A DNA stretch of 64,000 nucleotides from Clostridia bacterium (lineage in GTDB: Bacteria > Bacillota > Clostridia > Christensenellales > CAG-314): the NCBI GenBank assembly GCA_036654455.1, contig JAVVRZ010000001.1:257345-321344 (forward strand), given 5' to 3'. Positions 44,542-47,098 of the stretch are shown here, piece by piece. Positions within the stretch are counted from its first letter, which is position 1. Each line of letters opens with the position of its first letter. Position numbers and translations under genes: made by a program. Under the pieces are notes generated by a model that made no database searches, was not told where the DNA came from, and was given only the letters and a program-made list of their open reading frames with translations.

Positions 44542-45312
44542 CTACATATATTGTTTTAACTCTAAAAATGCGTTTTTTTCTAATCTAGAAACTTGCGCCT
44601 GAGAAATTCCAACTTCTTTTGATACTTCGCATTGAGTTTTTCCTTCATAGTAACGAAGTCGCAAAATATTTTGTTCTCTTTCGCCTAATTTTTTTATAGC
44701 TTGACTAAGCGTAACGTTATCTATCCAAACATCGTCGTTTCCGGACTTGTCGGCAATTTGGTCGACATAAAGTAGGCAATCTTTGTCGTCGCTATAAACG
44801 GGTTCGTAGAGCGAAATTGGTTCGTTTATGGCGTCAAGACAGTAAGTTATTTTTTCAATAGGTAGGTCTAGGGCTTGCGATACATTGTTGAGGTCTATTT
44901 CGTCGCTACTTTGCTGTTCAAGAAGTTCTCTTGCAAACATAACTTGATACGCCGTATCCCTTATGCCCCTTGAAACTCTCATACTATTTGTTTCTCTTAA
45001 ATTGCGTCTAATCTCGCCTATTATCATAGGCACGGCATAAGTGCTAAATTTGACGTTTAAGTCAATGTTGAAGTTGTCGACTGCTTTGACAAGTCCTACG
45101 CAACCAACTTGAAATAAATCGTCTAGATTATTGCTTCTTGCCGTATATCTTTGAACTACCGATAAAACTAACCTTAAATTTGATATTATAAATTGTTTTC
45201 GAACTTCATTATCGCCCGACTTTATTTGTTTTAACATCTCAAAAGACTCTTTATAGGATATTTTTGGCAATTCCGCCGTATTTACACCGCATATAACAAC
45301 TTTTTTAACCAT
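44542..45312 (-). CDS. sigG: Forespore-specific sigma factor SigG
   Basis: Sigma-G drives late forespore transcription. The N-terminus VVICGVNTAELP mirrors VEICGVDTSKLP of Bacillus SigG, a tag absent from SigF and SigE. Regions 2 (LDDLFQVGCVGLVKAVDNF, VKFSTYAVPMIIGEIRRNLR) and 4.2 (EREQNILRLRYYEGKTQCEVSKEVGISQAQVSRLEK) are intact. 256 residues. Start preceded by GGAGGTG. With spoIVA nearby it strongly supports sporulation. Confidence 0.96.
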   Translation of the reverse strand: MVKKVVICGVNTAELPKISYKESFEMLKQIKSGDNEVRKQFIISNLRLVLSVVQRYTARSNNLDDLFQVGCVGLVKAVDNFNIDLNVKFSTYAVPMIIGEIRRNLRETNSMRVSRGIRDTAYQVMFARELLEQQSSDEIDLNNVSQALDLPIEKITYCLDAINEPISLYEPVYSDDKDCLLYVDQIADKSGNDDVWIDNVTLSQAIKKLGEREQNILRLRYYEGKTQCEVSKEVGISQAQVSRLEKNAFLELKQYM

Positions 45313-45393
45313 AAAACACCTCCAAAATATCTTGCTAGACCTATTTTGCGCTAATTAATCTAAAATATACAATAAAAAGTGTCGCAAACTATG

Positions 45394-45422
45394 TTGACAT
45401 TAGAACAAATATACATTAAAAT
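45394..45422 (+). promoter_or_regulatory. Sigma-A promoter of the IlvD-like gene
   Basis: TTGACA, 17-bp spacer, TAAAAT, 33 bp before the ATG. It suggests vegetative expression, unlike the divergent sigG. Confidence 0.75.
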
Positions 45423-45454
45423 TATATAGACAAATAATACAAAAGGTAGAAATT

Positions 45455-47098
45455 ATGAAAAAAGAATATTATGAAGGTATTGACAAACTGCATATTAGGT
45501 CAGCGCTTAATGCGCTTAATATACCGCTTGACAAACCTACGATAGCTATTATTTCAACTCAAAACGAGGCGGACCTATCTAACAATACTCTTGAAATGGT
45601 AACTAAACGAGTGTGCGAAGGCGTGTTGAGCAATGGCGGTATTCCTAAAATTATGCACGTTTCAACCTTTTGCGATTCGACAATTTATGGCACAGAACAA
45701 GCAAAATATGAAATTTTACTTCGCAACTCTATCGCTAATCAAATTGAAATGCTTGCAAGCAACAAATTTTTTGACGCCTTTGTCTTTGTCGCTTCTAACT
45801 CAATAGCCGTTGCTGGTATGCTTATGGGCGCTATACGAATTAACCTTCCGTGTATATTTGTAAGCGGTGGTACGATGGCGCCGATTAAGAGTTTGGTTGA
45901 CGAACACATCGGTTATAACTACTGGTATACCGCTGTTGGCAAAATAAAAAATGGCGAAATAAACATTGACCAAGCCAAGAAAATTGAGCAAACTAAGCCC
46001 CTTTTTACCGGCATAGATTGCGAACTTTACGAACCTAACAGCATCAACTGTATGTTAGAGGTTCTAGGTTTGGCTGTATCGGGCAATAGTACGGTTATGT
46101 CTTATTGCTCAACACGCCTTGACCTTGCCTACAAGAGCGGTCAAATAGTCCTAGAAATGATAAAAAACGACCTTACGCCCAGTAGAATTATCAACGCAAA
46201 TTCTCTTACGGCTTGCCTAGTCTACGACCTTACAGTCGGCGGAAGTTGTTCAAATATTCTGCATTTACTAGCCTTTGCAAATGAGATAAAAAAATATTGG
46301 CGAATAGACACAATTAATTTTAACACAGTAGATTTACTTAGCAAGAAGATACCTGTTCTTTTTGCCAGTAGTGGCAATCGTAGCTTTGTCGAACTTCTCT
46401 GCGACGCAGGCGGAGTTTACGCCGTACTAGCTCAACTTAGTTCGCTTGCGTTAATTAATTGCGACTACCTAACTTATCTTAACAAGCCTATGTCTAAAAT
46501 AGTATTTCAAGCCCCTATCAAAGATAACAAAATTATTAGAACGGCAAAAGAAGCTGTTAACCCAACCTCGTTTATTAGAGTCCTTAGCGGTAATATAGCG
46601 CAGGGCGCTCTACTTAAATTTGACGGAAAAACACCTATCTTTAATGGAACGGCAAAGGTGTACGAAAACGAAGAATCGCTTACTTACGCTATTCTTGACC
46701 GTGAAATAAAAAAAGGCGCCGTAATAGTATTGCGTAACGAAGGTATTCAATCGGGCAATGGTATGCGTCAAATTATTCAACCTATGGCTCTTTTACACGG
46801 ACTTGGATTAGATAAAGACGTGGCAATAATTACCGACGCAAGAATTTGCAGTTTCTATCAAGGTTTTGCAGTTGGTCACATTACGCCCGAAACAATCGCA
46901 AACAGTATTTTAAGTATAATTCAAGACGGCGACAATATTGAGATTAATACAATTAAGTGTAGACTTACCGTAGATATTAAGGCAAAAGAGATTTCCAAAC
47001 GCAAAACTAACGCTATCGGCGAAACACAAGCAAATTCTGCCCTTGTTAAACGCTGTAAAAACATTTCTACTGCGGTTGAAGGTTGCGTAGAAAACTAA
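45455..47098 (+). CDS. Degenerate IlvD/Edd-family protein (predicted inactive as a dehydratase)
   Basis: Full-length 547-residue homologue of dihydroxyacid/phosphogluconate dehydratases. The scaffold is clear: GMLMGAIRINLPCIFVSGGTM, NSINCMLEVLGL, GGSCSNILHLLAFA, KFDGKTPIFNGTAKVYE, AIITDAR. The active-site elements are lost. The NCDK segment that gives an Fe-S cysteine, the metal Asp and the carbamylated Lys reads SNSI. The CGSCSGM segment reads TGIDCEL. The FSGG base serine region reads ICSF. YEGPKGGPGM is NEGIQSGNGM. The ORF is intact with a good promoter and ribosome binding site (AAAAGG), so it is under selection rather than decaying. Function unknown. Confidence 0.85.
   Translation: MKKEYYEGIDKLHIRSALNALNIPLDKPTIAIISTQNEADLSNNTLEMVTKRVCEGVLSNGGIPKIMHVSTFCDSTIYGTEQAKYEILLRNSIANQIEMLASNKFFDAFVFVASNSIAVAGMLMGAIRINLPCIFVSGGTMAPIKSLVDEHIGYNYWYTAVGKIKNGEINIDQAKKIEQTKPLFTGIDCELYEPNSINCMLEVLGLAVSGNSTVMSYCSTRLDLAYKSGQIVLEMIKNDLTPSRIINANSLTACLVYDLTVGGSCSNILHLLAFANEIKKYWRIDTINFNTVDLLSKKIPVLFASSGNRSFVELLCDAGGVYAVLAQLSSLALINCDYLTYLNKPMSKIVFQAPIKDNKIIRTAKEAVNPTSFIRVLSGNIAQGALLKFDGKTPIFNGTAKVYENEESLTYAILDREIKKGAVIVLRNEGIQSGNGMRQIIQPMALLHGLGLDKDVAIITDARICSFYQGFAVGHITPETIANSILSIIQDGDNIEINTIKCRLTVDIKAKEISKRKTNAIGETQANSALVKRCKNISTAVEGCVEN

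Follow-up and report, generated by a model that had tools for sequence, protein, structure and literature searches.

An IlvD-fold protein without dehydratase active-site residues in a family of Christensenellales that lacks the branched-chain pathway in most carriers

The IlvD fold and the protein in the window

The dehydratases of the IlvD/Edd superfamily are the closest described systems. In L-arabinonate dehydratase, a [2Fe-2S] cluster is bound by three cysteines (59, 127 and 200) and magnesium is held by Glu91, Asp128, carboxy-Lys129 and Glu453, with Ser480 acting as the base (PMC9795676, PMC11316719). The protein described here resembles IlvD (EC 4.2.1.9; M. tuberculosis 6OVT, A. thaliana 5ZE4) in its full-length two-domain fold and in most of the fold-defining segments, including the C-terminal EGP-PGMRE, TDxR and GH-TPE segments, and is 26-27% identical to the solved IlvD enzymes. 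Unlike them, it has no cluster cysteines, aspartate, carbamyl-lysine or catalytic serine, and its genome has neither AHAS nor KARI. It also has the superfamily fold in common with the sugar-acid dehydratases and Edd (5J84, 5OYN, 2GP4), but these are more distant (18-25% identity), and the low-scoring relatives of that type sampled in the class retain the two cysteines and the serine, whereas the window protein does not. No report of a site-less IlvD was found in the literature searched. An account of fungal Dis3/RNase II pseudonucleases (PMC8097288) describes a similar course, in which catalysis was lost repeatedly and independently and the protein was retained; that case concerns another fold and another kingdom, whereas here the loss accompanies that of a metabolic pathway.

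The window, that is, the whole 64,000-nucleotide stretch of DNA analysed, belongs to a genome of 1.37 Mb in which this protein is the sole IlvD homologue found. Its gene is an ORF of 547 aa on the + strand (45455..47098) with an ATG start and zero internal stops. Upstream lie a sigma-A-type promoter, TTGACA-N17-TAAAAT (45394..45422, +; -35 TTGACA at 45394-45399, -10 TAAAAT at 45417-45422, spacer 17 bp), and a ribosome-binding-site-like AAGGTAG (45443..45449, +). When upstream regions were compared, a TTGACA/TANAAT-like pair was found to precede nearly all orthologues, and the sigma-A promoter proposed in the preliminary description is thus borne out by boxes that are both near consensus and conserved. 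The divergent neighbour, at 44542..45312 on the - strand, is sigG, and it holds this position in most carriers of the family. Between the two genes, towards sigG (45313-45390, minus strand), a GTATA box and a GCTCAAA-like box are conserved family-wide; judged by their sequence, these are a sigma-F-type promoter for sigG.

Two Pfam domains, ILVD_EDD_N (PF00920, E=3e-62) and ILV_EDD_C (PF24877, E=5e-43), jointly cover nearly the complete protein and place it in the IlvD/Edd fold superfamily. The AlphaFold2 model (input alignment of 46 sequences) is confident, with a pLDDT of 89.7 and a pTM of 0.92, and the solved structure closest to it is M. tuberculosis IlvD (TM 0.93), in agreement with the earlier statement that the fold is kept. 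The protein scores 357 bits against the TIGR00110 ilvD equivalog, below the curated cut-off of 618, and it departs from IlvD also in its Fe-S cysteines, its metal Asp and carbamyl-Lys, its catalytic Ser and its pathway (AHAS, KARI). It has instead the marks of a pseudoenzyme: catalytic motifs are gone from a retained fold, and selection maintains the protein (omega in g3 and g109, below).

Residue positions were read from an alignment of the window protein with 182 intact IlvDs, on which the three altered strings given by the preliminary description proved exact. SNSI (residues 114-117; 45794..45805, +) replaces NCDK, which removes a cluster cysteine, the metal aspartate and the carbamyl-lysine (C115 to N, D116 to S, K117 to I); TGIDCEL (residues 185-191; 46007..46027, +) replaces CGSCSGM and with it another cluster cysteine (C188 to D); and ICSF (residues 464-467; 46844..46855, +) replaces FSGG/FSGA, the catalytic serine becoming Cys465 (S465 to C). 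Further changes are F464 to I, G466 to S, P120 to A and, in the PGH motif, P41/G42 to L/S. The region of the first cysteine is altered, as had been said, but the comparison made there with T-x-CN is weaker, and the point counts for less than the other losses, because the order's intact IlvDs are of the PGHxH type. Glu429 (46739..46741, +) is retained and corresponds by alignment to the Mg ligand Glu453 of L-arabinonate dehydratase; the position equivalent to Glu91 is variable also among intact IlvDs. The same alignment rules out catalytic residues at shifted positions, a possibility that had been allowed for, as neither the cysteines nor the serine are conserved in this way. C189 sits one residue past the third-cysteine position, and a partner cysteine near the NCDK position is absent. 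Since two cluster cysteines, the aspartate, the lysine and the serine are all replaced at equivalent positions, the known dehydratase reaction would not be expected of the window protein.

Distribution in the family and the order

One IlvD homologue each is present in 29 of the 41 genomes of the window's family, and in 27 of the 41 it is site-less (30-44% identity). The protein is thus not the lone oddity that it had seemed: most of a bacterial family has it as its only IlvD homologue, with an independent parallel case in another family. A local sequencing error, to be suspected had the close homologues been intact, is ruled out by a site loss common to 27 species. Only two of the 29 family carriers, G028 and G029 of a single genus, have an ordinary intact IlvD, which in G029 adjoins ilvC and ilvB homologues. 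In several family relatives the gene is cleanly absent at the sigG-side locus, so it is not essential everywhere. A search for viral copies of site-less IlvD found none.

The absence of branched-chain genes around the window gene, remarked on earlier, extends to its whole genome (no KARI, no AHAS). A KARI search of the 41 family genomes gave clear matches solely in the pair with an intact IlvD, G028 and G029, and weak partial matches in G032 and G038, both without IlvD; KARI was absent from all 27 genomes with a site-less copy. AHAS was not found above the cut-off in any tested carrier of a site-less copy. In an order-wide survey of 396 genomes, motif reading found all 110 IlvDs from KARI-positive genomes to be intact (one is incomplete at a contig end), and all 34 site-less proteins, namely 27 from the window's family, three from genus g109 and one each from G318, G068, G129, G069 and G357, came from genomes without a full KARI match. 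The Fisher value for this link is 3e-31; because the genomes are related, this figure should not be read as a probability for independent events. The genomes are mostly draft assemblies, in which the absence of KARI is weak evidence in one and strong across 34.

Two intact IlvDs stand apart from this pattern. G059 has AHAS and an intact IlvD without KARI, and its genome may simply be incomplete. G350 has an intact IlvD with neither KARI nor AHAS, possibly an intermediate stage between intact and site-less. Several neighbourhoods and copies were also recorded. The G350 gene, with its catalytic residues intact, lies beside a LeuB-like gene (L259, 7406-10233); the site-less IlvD of G318 lies beside a LeuB-like ORF (L229, 8421-11238), and that of G068 beside a citramalate or isopropylmalate synthase-like ORF (L255, 8309-11813). 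In the KARI-positive G111, an intact IlvD (L359) is accompanied by a second copy that is partly changed (L262, with CDS, GSGSEMS and IGG); duplication can be another route toward site change.

IlvD/Edd proteins with low scores elsewhere in the class were considered as further pseudoenzymes and ruled out. All 17 complete relatives of this kind retain the two cysteines and the serine, and for this reason loss of the site seems, within our sample, to be peculiar to this order. A separate IlvD/Edd subfamily (L234, L239, L341, L346 and L351) has CDS for CDK and YxGxKxRFGTTA for EGPKGGPGMRE with Cys and Ser kept; its carbamyl-lysine appears to be replaced.

A second case in genus g109

Three species of genus g109 (family f32) are site-less, with NTDT/NTDC, AGSA/AGSG and IPN/ISS/ISG at the motifs. 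Their genes occupy the locus of the intact IlvD in the sisters G227 and G246; ilvB lies near the intact gene in these two and is missing from the three site-less species, in which neither full KARI nor AHAS was found. In the trees, the g109 site-less clade is nested among the intact f32 enzymes with a support of 100, apart from the clade of the window's family, and the copies of G318, G068, G129, G069 and G357 have long branches. A single clade uniting every site-less protein was not rejected by the AU test (p 0.245), and the claim of independent origins therefore rests on g109, with its nesting and its shared locus. As the g109 proteins share their locus with the intact sister and are 67-68% identical to it, a single origin is very unlikely, and catalysis was lost at least twice in the order.

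The losses in the two families fall at much the same places. At 137 near-invariant IlvD columns, the three g109 proteins are all changed in 13 and not jointly changed in 124; the 13 are concentrated around the active site, and the window's family is altered at 12 of them too (5.6 expected, P 1.7e-4), with P120 to A, F464 to I and P443 to S recurring in both. The jointly lost positions are mostly catalytic residues and their neighbours, which argues that selection was released at the active site and maintained on the scaffold.

What the retained protein may do

In our view the window protein is probably a former IlvD that has outlived its pathway and has been retained for a catalysis-independent role, most plausibly as a ligand-binding protein or a scaffold. 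The carrier genomes are without KARI, and without AHAS wherever tested; the residues for the Fe-S cluster, most of those for the metal and the base have gone, with the fold-holding residues and the ORF under purifying selection; and a second family of the order went through a parallel sequence of events on its own. We infer that the order's IlvD had, or gained, a dehydration-free second job for which the protein was kept, most likely as a vegetatively expressed oligomer that acts, without Fe-S chemistry, as a sensor or scaffold. The retained core and C-terminal loops (EGPxxGPGMRE, TDGR and GHxTPE) may serve to bind either a small carboxylate or another protein.

It is possible, though we think it rather doubtful, that the protein is instead a neofunctionalised enzyme, with a pocket that does other, cluster-free chemistry, perhaps with a metal on oxygen ligands. 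Acids have taken the place of two of the cluster cysteines in g3/g7 (E115 and D188), near the retained E429; among site-less proteins of the family, 93% have D188 and 78% have E115. The pocket motifs of g3/g7 are strongly conserved (0.79 vs 0.63 for the rest of the protein), a contrast that is stronger in true IlvDs (0.82 vs 0.53); this fits a retained binding pocket, and new catalysis would also be possible. That the acids have turned the retired active site into a cluster-free catalytic or metal centre, and the protein into an IlvD-fold enzyme with new chemistry, seems unlikely to us. At NCDK each genus has a stable replacement (SEPN for almost every g3/g7 member), but the replacements vary from genus to genus (SEPN, SNSI, TDNC, NDAA, SDIY), and g109 carries T/A/P instead, so that there is no common new site. 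Because the replacement residues differ among genera, the sequences lead us to favour a retained non-catalytic role over a new cluster-independent activity.

A protein linked to sporulation, and functionally tied to the divergent sigG, is improbable. SigG is adjacent and divergent in most carriers, even in g4 and g10, whose wider surroundings are different, and beside the divergent g10 copy; however, the wider synteny is conserved as well, several relatives with sigG have no site-less gene, and the site-less copies of g109 and of other families are not beside sigG in the stretches read. Sporulation control of the site-less gene is rejected, its promoter being sigma-A.

Selection on the gene was gauged from omega, which is 0.12-0.21 for the closest pairs of g3, the best-sampled genus of the window's family, a rough value with synonymous sites near saturation. 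The dN of the site-less gene in g3 is within the range of neighbouring genes. In g109, omega is 0.10-0.17 for the site-less genes vs 0.12-0.13 for their intact sisters. Together with the retention of site-less homologues in 27 of the 41 family genomes, the g3 values uphold the earlier statement that the gene is intact and not decaying. A decaying remnant of the lost pathway, its removal pending, is largely refuted and highly improbable: the pathway is gone from carriers, the gene has been cleanly lost in some relatives and the omega of g3 exceeds that of distant intact IlvDs, but omega is far under 1 and in g109 equal to that of the intact sisters, the promoter is conserved, and the ORFs are full-length in 27 of 27 family carriers, contig ends aside.

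A Pfam or partial-score match to IlvD in small-genome MAGs is not equivalent to a branched-chain pathway. If IlvD repeatedly outlasts its pathway and its chemistry, it would have a role beyond branched-chain amino acids in these bacteria, masked by annotation, and this second role is testable in genus g109, where intact and site-less orthologues share a locus. The conserved site-less IlvD persists after pathway loss in this small spore-forming bacterium and in dozens of relatives, and since this has come about at least twice, the protein probably has a second job.
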